Part shown: positions 12,475 through 31,864 of the stretch, one piece after another
Position numbering within the stretch: position 1 is the first letter of the stretch
Layout of the letters: every line of letters starts with the position of its first letter
Assembly (NCBI GenBank): GCA_017445405.1
Contig: JAFSUD010000096.1
Location: forward strand, 1 to 35,995
DNA from: Synergistaceae bacterium
Lineage (GTDB): Bacteria; Synergistota; Synergistia; Synergistales; Aminobacteriaceae
DNA: 35,995 nt
Direction of reading: 5' to 3'
Program-made: the position numbers and the translations under genes
Notes under the pieces: model-generated
What the model was told of the DNA's origin: nothing
Seen by the model: the letters and a program-made list of their open reading frames with translations, nothing else
The model's database searches: none

Positions 12475-13257
12475 TTAGTGATAATCCTGCAGTTTACAGG
12501 CTATCTTCTCTATATTCTCTGCGTCTATCAGGATGCGTTTGACTTCATCATTCTGTGCATAATCGAGTGCAGTTTTGCCTTTGCTGTCTCTGGCGGAAAC
12601 ATCAGCACCCGCCTTGATGAGTACCCTCACCACTTCGGGATTGCTGTTGTGCTGAGCCGCTAGCATTAATGCCGTCATGCCGACCATGTTCTTAACGTTG
12701 ACATCTGCACCGGCTTTGATGAGTGCATTCATAACCTCTGCGCTGCTATTCCTTACAGCCGCCATAACTAAGGCCGTATGTCCTTTATCGTTCTTAGCGT
12801 TAACATCAGCACCGGCATTGACGAGAACGTTTATCACTTCAGGATTGCTATTGAACCCGGCAGCCGTCATTAAGGCAGTCCAGCCGTCAGTTTTCGCGGC
12901 GTTGACCTCAGCACCGGCTTTGATGAGTGCGTTCGAGATATCAGGATTATCATTGTCCATAGCCGCATACATTAAGGCAGTCCAGCCGTCCGTAGTCTTA
13001 GCATTAACCTCTGCACCTGCATTGATGAGAGCATTCACAGCATCGAGGTTGCTATCTTTCTGAGCTGCTAACATTAAGGCTGTGCTTCCTTCCGCGTACT
13101 TAGCATTGACATCGACACCAGCTTTGAGAAAATTCTCAATCATTCCCGGCTTCGTATTGCCGTTAAGTATTGCCTCTATCATTTCCTCCGTAGCATCGCA
13201 AAAAGCCGACGACACACTCATAATCACCAGCACTGCACACAAAAACGCTTTCTTCAT
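12475..13257 (-). CDS. Exported ankyrin-repeat protein
   Basis: Protein of 260 aa with a signal peptide (about 1-21, SSAFC-D) and about six ankyrin repeats. The recurrent unit is a TALMLAAQ helix, NPEVVNALIKAG and a DVNAK turn, every 34-36 residues; neighbouring repeats are also alike at DNA level. I chose ATG 13257, seven bases after AAGGAGG; a GTG directly before it is in frame but too close to that site. The ribosome site overlaps the stop of the kinase gene, so the two are translationally linked. No catalytic residue is seen; ankyrin folds bind proteins. A periplasmic binding protein within a metabolic operon is unusual and its partner is unknown. Confidence 0.88.
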   Translation of the reverse strand: MKKAFLCAVLVIMSVSSAFCDATEEMIEAILNGNTKPGMIENFLKAGVDVNAKYAEGSTALMLAAQKDSNLDAVNALINAGAEVNAKTTDGWTALMYAAMDNDNPDISNALIKAGAEVNAAKTDGWTALMTAAGFNSNPEVINVLVNAGADVNAKNDKGHTALVMAAVRNSSAEVMNALIKAGADVNVKNMVGMTALMLAAQHNSNPEVVRVLIKAGADVSARDSKGKTALDYAQNDEVKRILIDAENIEKIACKLQDYH

Positions 13258-13269
13258 CACGCTCCCTCC

Positions 13270-24611: not shown

Positions 24612-25283
24612 ATGAGGAAATTACGCACATTAGGGCTGTGTATATGCTGCATTCTGGTCTTGGCCGGAGCGTCTTTCGGAGCGAGCAGGCAGGAGAAGAA
24701 GAGCCTTAGCATCTTTCTGAGCAACTTTACGGAAGCGGGACTCTTCAATTTCGACATCAGGACATACGCCGACGAAGGAGAAGATGAACTAGAGGGAGAG
24801 ACTCCCCTGCATCTGGGCATTCCTAACAACGTTACGGAGCTTGCAAGGTTCGGGATAGTCCACAACCTCATCAACAATTACGGTTCACGAATCAAGAAGT
24901 GCAGGGATAGGAACTGCGAGTCCGGGCCGCTGGTTATCGACAAAAAATTTGTGGCTGAATCAGTGCGCAAGTATTTCGGGTTCGACCTTGACGCTATGGA
25001 CTTGAGTCCGATTCAGGATAGCCCCTCTGTAGTGTACTCTTATGACGGCAGGCTATATCACTTCGACGCGGAGAGCTTCGGCGAGCCAGACAATGACACG
25101 GTGTATTACGCAGAAGTTGAGGACGTTGACGAAGGCAGGTACATTACAGCATCAGGGTATATTTACGACACCAAGAGGCCGTCAGTGAGGAAGGGGACGT
25201 TTTCGGCGTTCGTGATTCCGAGCAAGTGGCGGGGCAAAGATTCGTGGCTGATAGTCAGCATGTCTACAGAATGGAGCAGGTGA
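24612..25283 (+). CDS. Exported protein of unknown function
   Basis: Protein of 223 aa. The start is ATG 24612 (MRKLRTLG) after AAGGAGGCTGTACAT; an upstream in-frame extension would remove the signal peptide from the N-terminus. Signal peptide about 1-24. The mature part has CRDRNCESG, then VVYSYDGRLYHFDAESFG and a terminal beta segment ending MSTEWSR. No known domain was recognised. It overlaps the next gene by one base (TGATG), so the two are translated together. Confidence 0.72.
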   Translation: MRKLRTLGLCICCILVLAGASFGASRQEKKSLSIFLSNFTEAGLFNFDIRTYADEGEDELEGETPLHLGIPNNVTELARFGIVHNLINNYGSRIKKCRDRNCESGPLVIDKKFVAESVRKYFGFDLDAMDLSPIQDSPSVVYSYDGRLYHFDAESFGEPDNDTVYYAEVEDVDEGRYITASGYIYDTKRPSVRKGTFSAFVIPSKWRGKDSWLIVSMSTEWSR

Positions 25284-26038
25284 TGAAGATGAAGAAAGTG
25301 ATTGCGTTATTGTGGTTAATGGCGTTATGCGGTTCTGCGTGCGCAATGCAGTATCCGGAACTCGGGGTATGCACAGGCGACAAAGTAAGGCTCAGGGAAG
25401 ACCCCGGCACAGAAGGGCAAGTGATAGGCCGTGCAGATGTCGGGACGCAGTTTATTGTGCTGGGCGAAGTTTACGTTGACGGGCAGAAGTGGTACGAGAT
25501 AGACCATCCTACGAAAGAAGGCAGTGCGTACATCATCGCAAGATACGTGAACGGCTGGTACAACAACGGAGAGTATCCTGTAGGTGAAGTGTGCGCCGGA
25601 GTGAGGCTGACGTTCGGCATAACTCCACAGAAGACCCGGGAGCTGCTCGGCAGACCAACGAAGACCGCCAGAGAAGACTCAGACGAAATTCTGGAGTATC
25701 CCGGCCTGAAGCTGTGGTACAACGAGGGGAGTCTCTCCCGAGCCGAGATTTCGGGGAAGGGCTATGCTGTGGGAGGTATTCAGGTCGGCGATAAAGTCGG
25801 AAAGCTCATGAATCTTGAAATGTCTGAAGATGCCCGCAGTATCCTTGAAGACATTATCCATGACTTGCATGATATAGCCTCAGAAGAGCACGATGACGAT
25901 GAAGCCGTTGACGGGCCTGAAGGCTGGAGTATGACGAGCGCGTCAGGCGAAGAGATATTCTTTCAGTTCGGGACGGACAGCAAGGGAGAATTTATCGTTG
26001 ATTGGATGAGCTGGTATCGTCCGCTCGGTGAAGGCTAG
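25283..26038 (+). CDS. Exported SH3-like domain protein
   Basis: Protein of 251 aa. Start ATG 25283 overlaps the previous stop and lies six bases after GGAG. Signal peptide about 1-21 (CGSACA). Residues about 27-85 form a bacterial SH3 domain (KVRLREDPGTEGQVIGRADVGTQF, then YIIARYVNGW), a fold that often binds cell wall. The C-terminal part contains LTFGITPQKTRELLGRPTK, resembling lipoproteins of the SmpA/BamE type that measure a start of a threshold repeat, but this is weak. Its end overlaps the convergent methylase gene by 47 bases. Confidence 0.75.
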   Translation: MKMKKVIALLWLMALCGSACAMQYPELGVCTGDKVRLREDPGTEGQVIGRADVGTQFIVLGEVYVDGQKWYEIDHPTKEGSAYIIARYVNGWYNNGEYPVGEVCAGVRLTFGITPQKTRELLGRPTKTAREDSDEILEYPGLKLWYNEGSLSRAEISGKGYAVGGIQVGDKVGKLMNLEMSEDARSILEDIIHDLHDIASEEHDDDEAVDGPEGWSMTSASGEEIFFQFGTDSKGEFIVDWMSWYRPLGEG

Positions 26039-27029
26039 AAAGTTCTTGATGCCCCTCTGAAGTTCCGGAGGGGTATTTTCTGCGCCGGATTAATATTCTG
26101 AAGTACGGACACCTGCCCCCGATTGATAAGTCTCTGCCGTCGAGTCCCTTTCTGAAGCCTAGAATCTCGAACTGTTCAGGGTTGTACTTGTGCAGAAAAG
26201 TTATAGGCACTCCCACAGCTCCGAAGTAATCGCAGGGTATATCTTCTGTCCTGTCTGCATTGATGCCTAGGTAATTGTCGTAAGCAGGGTATTTACTCTC
26301 AGTGTAGTGCTTGGTGAGATTAATGAACTCATGCCGTCTGAAGTTGTCCATGTTAGTCAGCCATAAACAGTTATTCGGTGATATTATCCTGCGTCCTGAT
26401 GCGTCAATGCGTGCTTCTGTTCCGTAAAGTTCATAGTCTTCAGGGACAATGAAGCCCGATATTCCTCTGCCAAAGTTCACTCCTAACCAGACTCTATTTG
26501 CCTGAATGAGCGTAAATACTTCCTTGTACGTGATTGCGTTGATGCTGCTGATGATTAAGAACTTCTTACGGTAAGCCATGAGCTGGGCGATGTACTCCCT
26601 GAAGAGCGAGAAGGGAGGATTGGTTACGACAATGTCAGCCAGCTTTAAGAGCGCAATACTCTCTTCACTCCTGAAATCTCCGTCGCCGTGAAAGCGTATC
26701 AGTTCTCCATCATCAGGGTGAATATTCTCACGGCCTGTGTATTCGTAATAGAAGCCGTGCTCAGTTGACGGGCTGAATAAATCGTTATCGTACTTCCTGT
26801 AGCATGAGCATATGACTTTCCTGATGCCGAGCCTGTAAAAATTATCCGTGAAGTACTTGAAGAAATTGCTGTTTCTCGGGTCGTCGCAGTTGCAGAAAAC
26901 TACCTTATTCCTAAAGTGTGCTTCGTAGTGCCGTAATTCGCGCTCAATGTCTGAGTAGAGAGTGTAGAACTCATCGCGTTTGTTGCGTTTCGCGAGGTCT
27001 AGGAGGCTGTGATTTGCCCGTCTTGCCAT
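25992..27029 (-). CDS. EcoRI-family DNA adenine-N6 methyltransferase
   Basis: Methyltransferase of 345 aa, closely matching M.EcoRI over almost its whole length: DEFYT at 19-23, FCNCDDPRNSNFFKYF (45-60), catalytic NPPF at 137-140, GVNFGRGISGFIVPEDYELYGTEARID and ISPNNCLWLTN. It should methylate an adenine in GAATTC to protect host DNA. M.EcoRI is 326 aa and ends shortly after YFRILI; here about 25 extra residues follow, read through the neighbour's terminator and into its coding end, so the ancestral stop seems lost. The ATG at 27029 is 4 bases after the endonuclease stop. Base composition looks more AT-rich than the surroundings, consistent with transfer. Confidence 0.95.
   Translation of the reverse strand: MARRANHSLLDLAKRNKRDEFYTLYSDIERELRHYEAHFRNKVVFCNCDDPRNSNFFKYFTDNFYRLGIRKVICSCYRKYDNDLFSPSTEHGFYYEYTGRENIHPDDGELIRFHGDGDFRSEESIALLKLADIVVTNPPFSLFREYIAQLMAYRKKFLIISSINAITYKEVFTLIQANRVWLGVNFGRGISGFIVPEDYELYGTEARIDASGRRIISPNNCLWLTNMDNFRRHEFINLTKHYTESKYPAYDNYLGINADRTEDIPCDYFGAVGVPITFLHKYNPEQFEILGFRKGLDGRDLSIGGRCPYFRILIRRRKYPSGTSEGHQELSSLHRADDTSSSNQR
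26051..26079 (+). terminator. Intrinsic terminator after the SH3-like gene
   Basis: GCCCCTC and GAGGGGT form a stem with a 10-base loop followed by TATTTTC. It lies inside the 3' end of the opposing methylase gene. Confidence 0.7.
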
Positions 27030-27033
27030 TAAG

Positions 27034-27858
27034 TTACCTCACTGCTAGCTGGCAGAATAGATCGCTGCCTAATACCTTTAATGAAGTTTCTGCTATATCC
27101 AGCATAACAGAAGACATTTCGCGTTCATTCCAGCGTTCACCGCTGCCCTGAGTGTAGATTGAGGCAGCCTGAAGCATTATCATCTTGTCGTAGTGAGGGA
27201 TGAATTTATTCCTGCAGAGGTTAGTGTTCAGGGGCATTCCGTAATTTGCTGCTGTGAGCCTGTCTAACCTGTTGAGAGTGCCTGAAGCATAATCAAGGGT
27301 TACACTTCTGCCGTCCGGCCTGTCAAGCGTTATGCTCTGCGTCAGGAAATTTGAGCCTTCTAGGAAGAGTACGTACGGGAAATGTGATTCTGCAAGCATG
27401 TAGTTAGCTATCTCCGCTATGTTCTTGTGAGCACGCTCTATCGCATTTCCGGCTACCATCAAATCTTGATTGCTGTTCTTTCCGACAAGTATTCCCTTCC
27501 TGATGTTCTCTATGTCTTTGCCCTGATACTTAGCTTCTGAGACAGGAATAACCCTCCAGTTTCCGCAGTCATCCTTCACTTCAAGAATACCTCCGTCGGG
27601 CTTTATGCTTGCATCGCTGACAAACAGCATCTGCCCTAAATACGCATCTATTTCTTGCAGGACAGCATTAATCTCTGCCTTGCTGATACTTGGCCGATGC
27701 CCGAACGATAACTGCGGATATTTCCCCTGCAGGTTATTCATGACTGATTCAGCAGCTATCCTCACTAGAGCGTCGTGCACCTGCGCCTTACCGCCGAATA
27801 TCCCCAAAGCTCCGTGTGATTCTTTCTGCTGTGCTGTTAATCGTCCTGACTGTCTCAT
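27034..27858 (-). CDS. EcoRI-family Type II restriction endonuclease
   Basis: Endonuclease of 274 aa (EcoRI is 277), recognisable as EcoRI-like from end to end: RLTAQQKESHGALGIFG at the start, IKPDGG with catalytic D88, SEAK with E108 and K110 (EcoRI D91, E111, K113), the recognition segment AGNAIERAHKN with N138, A139 and R142 (EcoRI N141, A142, R145), and NRLDRLTAANYGMP. All specificity residues I can align are kept, so cleavage at GAATTC is predicted. The ATG at 27858 lies inside an ancient duplication: upstream is a stray mnmA 3' fragment, not the complete mnmA. The methylase follows 4 bases after the stop. The R-before-M order matches EcoRI. Confidence 0.96.
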   Translation of the reverse strand: MRQSGRLTAQQKESHGALGIFGGKAQVHDALVRIAAESVMNNLQGKYPQLSFGHRPSISKAEINAVLQEIDAYLGQMLFVSDASIKPDGGILEVKDDCGNWRVIPVSEAKYQGKDIENIRKGILVGKNSNQDLMVAGNAIERAHKNIAEIANYMLAESHFPYVLFLEGSNFLTQSITLDRPDGRSVTLDYASGTLNRLDRLTAANYGMPLNTNLCRNKFIPHYDKMIMLQAASIYTQGSGERWNEREMSSVMLDIAETSLKVLGSDLFCQLAVR

Positions 27859-28018
27859 ATTCTCCCGGCAATAGTCCCTCCCGCAAGCACATACTCCCCG
27901 TCGTAAATCACCGCTGCCTGTCCAACCGCAGGGACTCTCTGTCTCTCCGAAAACTCTATCACCAGCTCATCACTGCCTGACTGACTCGCCACACTAACAA
28001 TCCCCTTCTACCTGTACC
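27855..28018 (-). pseudogene. mnmA 3' fragment (duplicate)
   Basis: The last ~53 codons of mnmA, copied by the 328-bp duplication. It ends in the same TGA that overlaps the R-gene ATG. Substitutions include a Trp-to-Gly change near the end (GCCGGG instead of GCCTGG), consistent with decay. Confidence 0.85.
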
Positions 28019-28020
28019 CT

Positions 28021-28186
28021 GCCGATGCCCGAACGGTAACTGCGGATATTTCCCCTGCAGGTTATTCATGACTGATTCAGCAGCTATCCTCACTAGAGCG
28101 TCGTGCACCTGCGCCTTACCGCCGAATATCCCCAAAGCTCCGTGTGATTCTTTCTGCTGTGCCGTTAATCTTCCTGACTGTCTCAT
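28021..28186 (-). pseudogene. EcoRI-like endonuclease 5' fragment (duplicate)
   Basis: Its ATG at 28186 overlaps the true mnmA stop (ATGA). It encodes the first ~55 residues of the endonuclease, up to FGHR, then enters mnmA-derived sequence out of frame and stops at 27959. It lacks every catalytic residue, so no nuclease activity is possible. Confidence 0.88.
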
Positions 28187-29262
28187 ATTCTCCAGGCAAT
28201 AGTCCCTCCCGCAAGCACATACTCTCCCCCATAGATCACCGCTGCCTGTCCGACCGCAGGGACTCTCTGTCTCTCCGCAAACTCTATCACCAGCTCATCA
28301 CTGCCTGACTGATTCACCACACAAGCAATCTCCTTCTGCCTGTACCTCGTCTTCACGCAGACTCTCAGGTTCTCCGGCATCACATCAAACGCAATCATGT
28401 TTACGTCCCTCACGACTACACCGCGTGCATACAGCCCGGCCTCGTCTTCTGACGCAAGGGTTATCGTGTTGCTCGCACCGTCAATCTCTGACACATACAG
28501 CCGAGATTTCCCCGCGACTCCGAGACCCCTTCTCTGTCCTGCAGTGTAGTGAATAATGCCCTTGTGCGTGCCAAGCACCCGGCCCGAAGTGTCGACGAAT
28601 TTTCCTGAATGGTAGCGTTTGCCCGTGTATGCCTCGATAAATCCGCCGTAGTCCCCATCAGGCACAAAGCATATATCCTGTGAATCATGCTTGCGTGCGT
28701 TCATGAATCTCCTGCTCTCGGCCAAGTCCCTGACATCAGACTTCTTCATGCCTCCAAGCGGAAACTCCGTGTGAGCTAGCTGCTCCTGTGTCAGCGTGTA
28801 CAGAACATAGCTCTGGTCTCTGGATGAATCTATGGCTTTCCTCAGCAAATATCTTCCTGAAGGTGTCCTCTCTATCCTTGCGTAATGCCCCGTCGCAATC
28901 TTCTCAAGCCCCAAACTCTCAGCATGTCTCAGCATCGCATCAAACTTCATGTGCCTGTTGCAGTCAATGCACGGATTAGGCGTGCCTCCAGACTCGTAGA
29001 CGTTCACGAACTTCTTTATCACCTTGTCCTCGAAGTCCTGCATGTAGTTCAAGACCTCGTGCTCAATCCCCAGCAAGTCGCACACTGCCTTAGCGTCAAG
29101 GATATTTTCCCGCGAACAGCACGGATGACGTGAAGAGATGCCCAACGCCTCATTCAGATAGAGAAGCATAGTCGCTCCCCTGCATGTCTTGTGATTGATT
29201 GTGCACAAATATGCGGCAACGCTGCTGTCAACGCCGCCGCTCATAGCTGCAAGTATGCTCAA
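28183..29262 (-). CDS. mnmA: tRNA-specific 2-thiouridylase
   Basis: Enzyme of 359 aa that thiolates U34 of tRNAs for Lys, Glu and Gln. The PP-loop SGGVDSS is at 8-14; the catalytic pair is C101 (IDCNRHMKF) and C198 (DSQDICF), equivalent to C102 and C199 of E. coli; GHYARI and YTAGQRRGLGV are also typical. The start is TTG 29262, one base after the aminotransferase stop and without a clear ribosome site, implying translational coupling; ATG 29244 would cut into the first strand of the PP-loop fold. Its TGA overlaps the ATG of the truncated R-gene copy. Confidence 0.95.
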   Translation of the reverse strand: MSILAAMSGGVDSSVAAYLCTINHKTCRGATMLLYLNEALGISSRHPCCSRENILDAKAVCDLLGIEHEVLNYMQDFEDKVIKKFVNVYESGGTPNPCIDCNRHMKFDAMLRHAESLGLEKIATGHYARIERTPSGRYLLRKAIDSSRDQSYVLYTLTQEQLAHTEFPLGGMKKSDVRDLAESRRFMNARKHDSQDICFVPDGDYGGFIEAYTGKRYHSGKFVDTSGRVLGTHKGIIHYTAGQRRGLGVAGKSRLYVSEIDGASNTITLASEDEAGLYARGVVVRDVNMIAFDVMPENLRVCVKTRYRQKEIACVVNQSGSDELVIEFAERQRVPAVGQAAVIYGGEYVLAGGTIAWRI

Positions 29263-29263
29263 G

Positions 29264-30466
29264 TTATTTCAGGAGATCGCCCATCTTGCGGAGTCTCTTG
29301 ATGGCCTCTTCCAGAACGTCAGGAGTCCTCGCAAAGTGGAAGCGGATCAGGTTGTTGATAGGCTCGCGGAAGAAGCTCGATCCCGGAACTGCAGCAACGC
29401 CGATGTTCTTGATGACCCACTCGCAGAACTCTAAGTCCGTCCAGCCCTTGAACTGGTCAAGCGCAAGGAAGTCGCTTATGTCGACCATCACGAAGTACGA
29501 ACCCTGCGGAATGTTGTGCTTGAGTCCTGCCTCGTCGAGTCCCTCAAGGAATCTGTTGCGCAGTCCCGTGTACTTGGCCTTCAGAGCGTCGTAGTACTCC
29601 GGCGGAAGCTCGAATGCGTGAACCGCAGCCTCCTGCAACGGTGCAGCAGCTCCGACAGTCAGGAAGTCGTGAACTTTGCGTGCTCCGTCAACGACATATG
29701 CAGGCCCGATGAGGTAGCCCAAACGCCAGCCGGTGATTGAGTAAGTCTTCGAGAGTGAATTGCAGGTGATGACGTGGTCAAAGAGTCCCGGAAGCCCTGA
29801 TGCGTAAACATGCTTGTACGGGTCAAAGACTATGTGCTCGTAAACTTCATCGGTGATGATGAACGCGTCATACTTCACTGCGAGCGCGCCTATCTCTGTT
29901 AATTCCTTCTCTGTGAAGACTTTTCCGCAGGGGTTAGAGGGGTTGCAGATAACTATAGCCTTTGCTCCCTGCTTGAAGCCGTCCTCGATTAACTTTATGT
30001 CGTAGTCATACGTAGGAGGCACTAACGGAATGTAGATAGGAGACGCGCCGGAGAGTATGGAGTCCGCGCCGTAATTCTCGTAGAACGGGGAGAACACCAT
30101 AACTTTATCGCCGGGGTTGCAGATGGTCATCATTGCGGCCATCATTGCCTCAGTGCTTCCGCAGGTAATCACTATCTCGGTCTCGGGGTCTATGCTGCGT
30201 CCGATTGCCTTGCTCTGTTTTGCGCAGATTGCTTCACGGAAATTCTTTGCTCCGAAGGTTATTGCGTACTGATGCGGGCCGGTGTGGGCAGCTTTGGCGA
30301 GGGAGTCGGTCATCTCTACGGGAGGCTCCCAGTTAGGGAATCCCTGTGATAAGTTGATTGCTCCGTACTTGTTGCAGATGCGGGTCATTCGGCGGATTAC
30401 GGAGTCTGTGAATGTTCCTACCCTGTCGCTTAATGTGGGCATGATGAATACTTCAAGTCCTTTCAT
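29264..30466 (-). CDS. Class I/II pyridoxal-phosphate aminotransferase
   Basis: Aminotransferase of 400 aa. Typical pieces are NLSQGFPNWEPP (about 38-49), CNPSNPCGKVF, DEVYEHIVFD, the pyridoxal-phosphate lysine K240 in SLSKTYSITGWRLGY and RFHFARTP near the end. The N-terminal pattern resembles the kynurenine/methionine aminotransferase group (YbdL-like). The substrate is not certain. The start is ATG 30466, or ATG 30442 (MPTLSDRVG); neither has a convincing ribosome site. It is followed at one base by mnmA. Confidence 0.9.
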   Translation of the reverse strand: MKGLEVFIMPTLSDRVGTFTDSVIRRMTRICNKYGAINLSQGFPNWEPPVEMTDSLAKAAHTGPHQYAITFGAKNFREAICAKQSKAIGRSIDPETEIVITCGSTEAMMAAMMTICNPGDKVMVFSPFYENYGADSILSGASPIYIPLVPPTYDYDIKLIEDGFKQGAKAIVICNPSNPCGKVFTEKELTEIGALAVKYDAFIITDEVYEHIVFDPYKHVYASGLPGLFDHVITCNSLSKTYSITGWRLGYLIGPAYVVDGARKVHDFLTVGAAAPLQEAAVHAFELPPEYYDALKAKYTGLRNRFLEGLDEAGLKHNIPQGSYFVMVDISDFLALDQFKGWTDLEFCEWVIKNIGVAAVPGSSFFREPINNLIRFHFARTPDVLEEAIKRLRKMGDLLK

Positions 30467-30565: not shown

Positions 30566-31864
30566 ATGAAGAAAGCAATACTAGCAGTCATAATTTCGCT
30601 GCTGTGTGTGAGTGCTGGTCATGCACTGCCATCACGCTATGACCTTCGGGACTACGGCAGAGTTACCGGCATCAAGAATCAGGGAGTGCCCGGGCCATGC
30701 TGGGCATTTGCAGCACTCGGAGCAATGGAGAGCAATTACCTCACAAAGAAGCTCAACACTGACGGCAAAGAACCCGACCTCTCAGAGATGCAGTTAGCGT
30801 TCTACTCCTACAGAGACCCTGACAATAAGCGCAACTTCACTCCGCTTCACAACTCCGGGACTCTAAGGCTCGAGGGCAGTGCTTACAGGGCAGCAGCTTT
30901 CCTGATGAGGCTCTCCGGCCCTGCTGACGAAAAGTCTCTGCGCTACGATACCAACATGCCCGACTCCGAGAAGAAAGCTCTCGACAAGAAGTCTCCTGAA
31001 TCCTTCAAGAGAGTGATGCGTCTCCGTGATGCTTACTTCCTCGCGGGCAACCAGATACTCGGCGACACGGCCAAGAAAGAGTTAATCATGGAGCACGGAG
31101 CAATATACGTGAGCATCTACAGCGATCCCCTCAAGTACCGCATGAAGAGCAAGCACTTCACGTACTACAACCCTTCGCACGGACAGGAGACGGATCACGA
31201 CGTTCTGCTCATCGGCTGGGATGACAATTTCCCTCGCAGCAACTTCTCGCCCGAGCCTTCACGGGACGGAGCGTGGCTCGTCAAGAACTCATGGGGGACG
31301 ATTCGCGGCAACGAAGGCGGGTATTTCTGGATGTCCTACGACCAGCACACTTGGGGAGGAACTGCCTTTGTCGTCGAGAGAGCCAATCCGAGAATGAGGC
31401 ATTACGGCTATGATGACTTGGGAGTCTGCAGCAACGTACATTATTCATGGGGAGCAAACATCTTCAGGACGCAGACCAAGAAAGAGAACCTGAACGAGGC
31501 AGCATTTTACGCGCCGGGCAATAATCTGCGCTATGAGCTTTACGTCTACAGGCTGGGCTATAAGATTCCTGCGTCTCCGGTTGCCGGGACTCTGGTTACG
31601 AGCACGTCGGGAACTGTCAAGCTCGCAGGGTACTACACGATCACTCTGCCTGACACGGTGAGCCTCAAGGGGAGCGAGTATTTCTCAGTGGTGCTTAAGC
31701 TGTCTGGAGGGTATATACCTGTCGAGACGAAGAGAGCGAGATATTCTGACAATGCAGAAGTGAATGAACGGGAAAGTTACTTTTCGAAGGACGGACGGAG
31801 CTGGACTGACGGAGTAACAATCGGCAGCAATGCATGTATCAAGGCCTTCACCATTGCCAGATAA
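30566..31864 (+). CDS. Exported papain-family (C1A) cysteine protease
   Basis: Secreted protease of 432 aa with a signal peptide (1-20, GHA). There is no long propeptide: the mature part starts almost directly with YDLRDYGRVTGIKNQG. Catalytic residues are visible: oxyanion Q39, C45 (GPCWAFAA), H211 (TDHDVLLIGWDD) and N241 (VKNSWG). Residues about 285-430 form a beta-rich region like the lectin-like domain found behind bacterial C1A proteases. ATG follows AGGAGGCAGATTATCTA. Substrates could be host or dietary protein. It is divergent from the aminotransferase. Confidence 0.92.
   Translation: MKKAILAVIISLLCVSAGHALPSRYDLRDYGRVTGIKNQGVPGPCWAFAALGAMESNYLTKKLNTDGKEPDLSEMQLAFYSYRDPDNKRNFTPLHNSGTLRLEGSAYRAAAFLMRLSGPADEKSLRYDTNMPDSEKKALDKKSPESFKRVMRLRDAYFLAGNQILGDTAKKELIMEHGAIYVSIYSDPLKYRMKSKHFTYYNPSHGQETDHDVLLIGWDDNFPRSNFSPEPSRDGAWLVKNSWGTIRGNEGGYFWMSYDQHTWGGTAFVVERANPRMRHYGYDDLGVCSNVHYSWGANIFRTQTKKENLNEAAFYAPGNNLRYELYVYRLGYKIPASPVAGTLVTSTSGTVKLAGYYTITLPDTVSLKGSEYFSVVLKLSGGYIPVETKRARYSDNAEVNERESYFSKDGRSWTDGVTIGSNACIKAFTIAR

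Follow-up and report, generated by a model that had tools for sequence, protein, structure and literature searches.

An EcoRI-type restriction-modification pair behind mnmA in one clade of a Synergistaceae genus, probably long resident and repeatedly lost

Introduction

EcoRI and M.EcoRI are known from mobilizable plasmids of E. coli and Klebsiella, with the endonuclease gene placed upstream of the methylase gene. EcoRI relatives in distant bacteria are well known. RsrI of Rhodobacter sphaeroides is an EcoRI-family nuclease with GAATTC specificity, and its partner methylase belongs to a different class. The nuclease RsrI is 50 % identical to EcoRI (PMC5896346, PMC4081073). LraI from Lactococcus raffinolactis was purified as a lactococcal EcoRI isoschizomer, and REBASE contains 526 putative EcoRI-like proteins (PMC5896346). 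Lost restriction-modification (R-M) systems may also be recognised, for the avoidance of a recognition site can persist as their trace in relatives without the system (PMC4687349, Rusinov et al. 2015).

The window, the whole stretch of 35,995 nucleotides from a Synergistaceae bacterium (genome G000) that was analysed, carries a pair of this family. As in the plasmid systems of E. coli and Klebsiella, the endonuclease gene is adjacent to and upstream of the methylase gene, both are full length (65 % identity to EcoRI from end to end, about 63 %, with a range of 63-65 %, to plasmid M.EcoRI across the length), and the catalytic and core recognition residues are the same. Unlike these systems, the window pair is chromosomal and linked to mnmA, has Y114 and V138 in EcoRI numbering, a readthrough tail on the methylase and a duplicated start of the endonuclease gene. 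It resembles RsrI in the nuclease family and the predicted GAATTC specificity, and LraI as a putative EcoRI isoschizomer pair in a non-enterobacterium; LraI is biochemically proven in another host, whereas the window pair is known from sequence. From the lost systems of Rusinov et al. (PMC4687349) the locus differs in that the same position shows, within one genus, a scar as well as several stages of partial decay.

The preliminary description of this DNA had considered an EcoRI-like pair outside the enterobacteria as notable. This could not be maintained: besides enterobacterial plasmids, the endonuclease family was found on plasmids of Leuconostoc, Staphylococcus, Rhodococcus and Acinetobacter and in contigs of Ruminococcaceae and Hydrogenedentota; a further member was contained in a Helicobacter phage record, with 72.6 % over a part of 157 residues. 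A scan of viral contigs for relatives of the endonuclease gave none. The window pair is an ordinary member of the family in an informative evolutionary setting.

Results and discussion

The endonuclease gene (27034-27858, minus strand) encodes an EcoRI-family type IIP restriction endonuclease of 274 aa. PF02963 matched with 426.7 bits (cut-off 22) over positions 1-257 of 257, and phmmer aligned residues 2-272 to residues 5-275 of EcoRI chains (E=1.4e-114). The methylase frame covers 25992-27029 on the same strand. Its conserved 318-aa part (26076-27029) is an M.EcoRI-family adenine methyltransferase according to PF13651 (399.1 bits, cut-off 26.4, residues 10-295) and to the alignment, in which the NPPF motif was found. 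The readthrough tail (25992-26075) adds 27 residues and a stop past the usual family end, and overlaps the 3' end of a convergent gene (25226-26038, plus strand) for a probably exported SH3-domain protein. Thus the complete pair with end-to-end alignment, as described before, was confirmed. A PDB search with the methylase revealed no real relative, and an NCBIfam search no model for either protein. By homology, the endonuclease would be a dimeric PD-(D/E)XK nuclease cutting unmethylated G/AATTC, and the methylase would protect the host by methylation of the adenine in GAATTC. From the sequence, present-day cleavage and methylation of GAATTC may be expected in the source strain, and the pair may serve in the defense against phages.

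Methylases of the M.EcoRI family with about 50 % identity are present in many congeners, several per genome (including L015-L024) and often in frames of 340-430 aa. As candidates for the same system they were rejected, because their presence does not track the depletion of GAATTC; they are likely enzymes of other specificities or solitary enzymes. The whole genome of G000 contained eleven matches to N6/N4 methyltransferase domains and about three C5 methyltransferase genes, and is possibly rich in R-M systems.

The residues D88, E108, K110, N138, A139 and R142 listed in the preliminary description are all present and correspond in the alignment to the catalytic D91, E111 and K113 and to the recognition residues N141, A142 and R145 of EcoRI. 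The accompanying statement that all base-contacting residues are kept applies to those listed, not to H114 and A138 of EcoRI, which are Y and V in the window enzyme. In EcoRI, H114 has a role in recognition and catalysis and the exchange A138T raises the star activity at AAATTC (PMC11755562); low-salt cleavage of AAATTC is known for the isoschizomer LraI (PMC5896346). Nevertheless, a changed or relaxed specificity of the window enzyme, e.g., for AAATTC too, caused by the natural Y114 and V138 appears very improbable. In the alignment, Y114 is also present in the homologues from Leuconostoc, Staphylococcus and Rhodococcus, and V138 in the homologue from Ruminococcaceae; both positions vary among natural EcoRI-family members and neither is a defining feature. 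Among the site variants tested, a strong depletion in the carriers was limited to GAATTC: the star site AAATTC, whose avoidance would have pointed to a relaxed specificity, was unavoided with 0.95-1.85 of the expectation, and the milder dip of CAATTC was genus-wide. The recurrence of both residues in natural homologues and the unavoided AAATTC suggest an ordinary specificity of the window enzyme, and the avoidance of GAATTC without that of AAATTC backs the earlier proposal of a putative GAATTC-type system.

The pair forms the tail of a same-strand gene row. It is preceded by a class I/II aminotransferase (29264-30466, minus strand), the conserved upstream partner of mnmA, and by mnmA itself (28183-29262, minus strand), the gene of a tRNA 2-thiouridine synthase, which is the conserved anchor point of the system within the genomes of the genus. 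The start codon of the endonuclease gene overlaps the stop of an upstream copy of the mnmA tail (ATGA). This copy belongs to a tandem duplication across the mnmA/endonuclease junction (27693-28348) with a spacing of 328 bp and 96 % likeness over 300 nt. Unit 1 (28021-28348, minus strand) holds the real mnmA 3' end and the first ~55-59 endonuclease codons; in unit 2 (27693-28020, minus strand) the mnmA tail has decayed, and the intact endonuclease gene begins there. A truncated endonuclease frame of 75 aa (27959-28186, minus strand), with endonuclease-like sequence in its first ~55-59 residues (the second, truncated copy spans 28010-28186), presumably arose from the duplication and is without function. 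The preliminary description had missed the truncated copy, the readthrough tail and the exchanges at positions 114 and 138 of EcoRI.

The copies are as alike as two strains may be, and G000 is a draft genome of 103 contigs and 87.6 % completeness; the duplication, as a sub-feature and not the pair, could possibly be an assembly chimera of two strains, a reading that we consider doubtful. There is no N gap at the junction, and both units carry sequence differences: a Ser-to-Pro change in the endonuclease piece of unit 1, an in-frame stop and many extra changes in the upstream, non-coding part of unit 2. In comparison to MnmA of congeners, the more typical residues, DGEY and AG, are those of the unit 2 tail, whereas the working mnmA of unit 1 has GGEY and AW. 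The changes in both units together with the typical residues of unit 2 argue that the duplication is real and not very recent. It may have disturbed the coupling of the endonuclease gene to mnmA; a promoter and terminator scan near the endonuclease gene detected no sigma-70 consensus promoter and nothing above shuffled sequences. The pair is, as noted before, somewhat more AT-rich than its surroundings (GC content of 47.6 % for the endonuclease and 46.6 % for the methylase gene versus 52.6 % for mnmA and 50.7 % for a genome sample), and the glycogen genes of the flanks were recovered as phosphorylase, synthase and NTP-transferase. No plasmid or mobilization genes were among the neighbours examined. 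The window further encodes an ankyrin-repeat protein (12475-13260) and a protease of the papain family that has a lectin-like domain (30566-31864).

Avoidance of GAATTC was measured on sampled regions and by pattern counts in whole genomes. The window contains none of these sites versus 11.3 expected, the G000 genome (2.5 Mb) 93 versus 353 for the reversed pattern as control. In all 13 members of the clade that includes the carriers, 5-93 sites were counted, G000 being the least depleted member; for eight congeners not belonging to the clade the counts were 774-1472, and the remaining genus genomes had counts in between or were depleted without any detected system. Ratios of observed to expected sites, based on a second-order Markov expectation, were 0.15, 0.10, 0.02 and 0.02 in the four carriers. 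Four depleted non-carriers had 0-0.04, four non-depleted congeners reached 0.72-0.86, and the ratio for an E. coli sample was 0.93. Depletion in about 20 congeners without the system was equal or stronger. The presence of the endonuclease as the sole cause was therefore rejected. The avoidance supports a long exposure of the lineage to GAATTC restriction, of which it would be a trace, and its cause may be seen in the long residence of the pair; due to the depletion in non-carriers and of many other palindromes, it is no proof of current activity. Throughout the genus, many six-base palindromes are nearly missing. In 389 kb of G000, observed and expected counts were 0/113 for AGCGCT, 0/73 for GGCGCC, 1/123 for GACGTC and 6/136 for AAGCTT. 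The median ratio for six-base palindromes was 0.18-0.6 in the genus (sampled regions L097-L176) versus 0.65 in an E. coli sample of 50 kb.

Among 188 genomes of the phylum, representing 63 genera, the endonuclease family was detected in one genus only, in five genomes. The gene mnmA was found in 40 of the 43 genomes of this genus. Endonuclease and methylase genes follow directly after mnmA in G000, G039, G003 and G031; in G040 endonuclease fragments alone are left at the site. The endonuclease frame of G039 is broken near the N-terminus and may start internally, 17 residues downstream; that of G003 has a TAG near residue 259. G033, a genome with 404 GAATTC sites, has a homologue of M.EcoRI (73 %) beside rpsO without an endonuclease (L038:9129-10115). 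At the empty site of G030 one TATAAT lies between mnmA and the downstream gene, and the cassette of G003, which is followed by a downstream gene of the same kind, has one TATAAT on each side. Both an insertion with duplication of a short target and a loss across the repeat are compatible with this pattern. In G003, G040 and G031, a TATAAT of the extended -10 type, with TG in front, lies at the mnmA stop or directly behind it and a short distance ahead of the endonuclease start (L036 near 7610, L039 near 8990, L037 near 10047); in two of these genomes, G003 and G040, the start codon is close enough to it for a leaderless message to be possible.

An intact pair is missing from nine of the 13 clade members, and the endonuclease tends to break before the methylase, as seen in an N-terminal frameshift, a nonsense codon, a scar and an orphan methylase; the genomes are drafts, and some of the endonuclease lesions could be assembly errors. 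Damage in three related copies (G039, G003, G040) and the solitary methylase of G033 would also suit a decaying relic without restriction in the window itself, with an intact endonuclease poorly expressed behind its duplicated start and a methylase acting as solitary enzyme. The 93 GAATTC sites of G000, more than in its clade mates, the duplicated endonuclease start and the lost normal stop of the methylase point in the same direction. We regard a relic as rather unlikely, since the window endonuclease is full length with every key residue kept and pairwise comparison indicated purifying selection on it. As a tentative and broader reading, the mnmA locus may have caught, in successive stages of its loss, one of the systems responsible for the unusually strong palindrome avoidance of the genus.

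In a host tree of aminotransferase and MnmA, two genes and thus a thin basis, all carriers and the G040 remnant belonged to a single clade, which comprises 13 sampled species and has a support of 0.98. The endonucleases of the genus formed a single clade (1.0), and the window sequences grouped with those of G039 in the endonuclease (0.93) and methylase trees (0.98), as in the host tree. Among each other, these endonucleases diverged to 73-77 % identity, matching mnmA, and pairwise comparison of the carriers gave saturated dS and a dN/dS of about 0.1 or less for both genes, similar to mnmA. The shared mnmA-linked site, the saturated dS and the host-like tree indicate an old acquisition, probably by horizontal transfer at some point. 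The earlier suggestion of a horizontally acquired system may therefore stand for the origin, not for a recent event. A recent acquisition, independent in each species with the mnmA 3' end as a repeated insertion target, would account for the AT-richness of the pair relative to mnmA and the flanks, its absence from most congeners, the plasmid location of the family elsewhere and the TATAAT repeats around the G003 cassette, which a short target duplication might leave. It is nevertheless improbable in view of the single endonuclease clade, the mnmA-like divergence with saturated dS, the restriction of the carriers to one host clade, the scar in G040 as sign of loss and the long-standing depletion of GAATTC. 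As a recently acquired island the pair was rejected: the site is common to three congeners, the tree is host-like and the avoidance of GAATTC strong. For the nine clade members without an intact pair, several independent gains at one site are a less likely reading; the simplest account is a single old arrival in the clade with repeated losses thereafter. Inheritance at the locus would then have been vertical rather than by repeated exchange. We conclude with good confidence that an EcoRI-type pair has long resided behind mnmA on the chromosome in one clade of the genus, was mainly passed on vertically and was repeatedly lost, the endonuclease before the methylase.

Conclusions

As far as our searches show, the classic EcoRI system is extended to a genus not previously noted for EcoRI. 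The natural enzymes with Y114 and V138 offer a cheap test whether changes that loosen the EcoRI of E. coli are compensated in nature. If the broader reading of the palindrome avoidance holds, the genus could serve to trace restriction systems of the past, and the 3' site of mnmA would be one place of their gain and loss. Intact, damaged, scarred and empty states of one locus across sister species, combined with a genome-wide depletion of the target, make a clean comparative case, in which the order of loss, endonuclease before methylase, and the persistence of avoidance after the loss can be measured.
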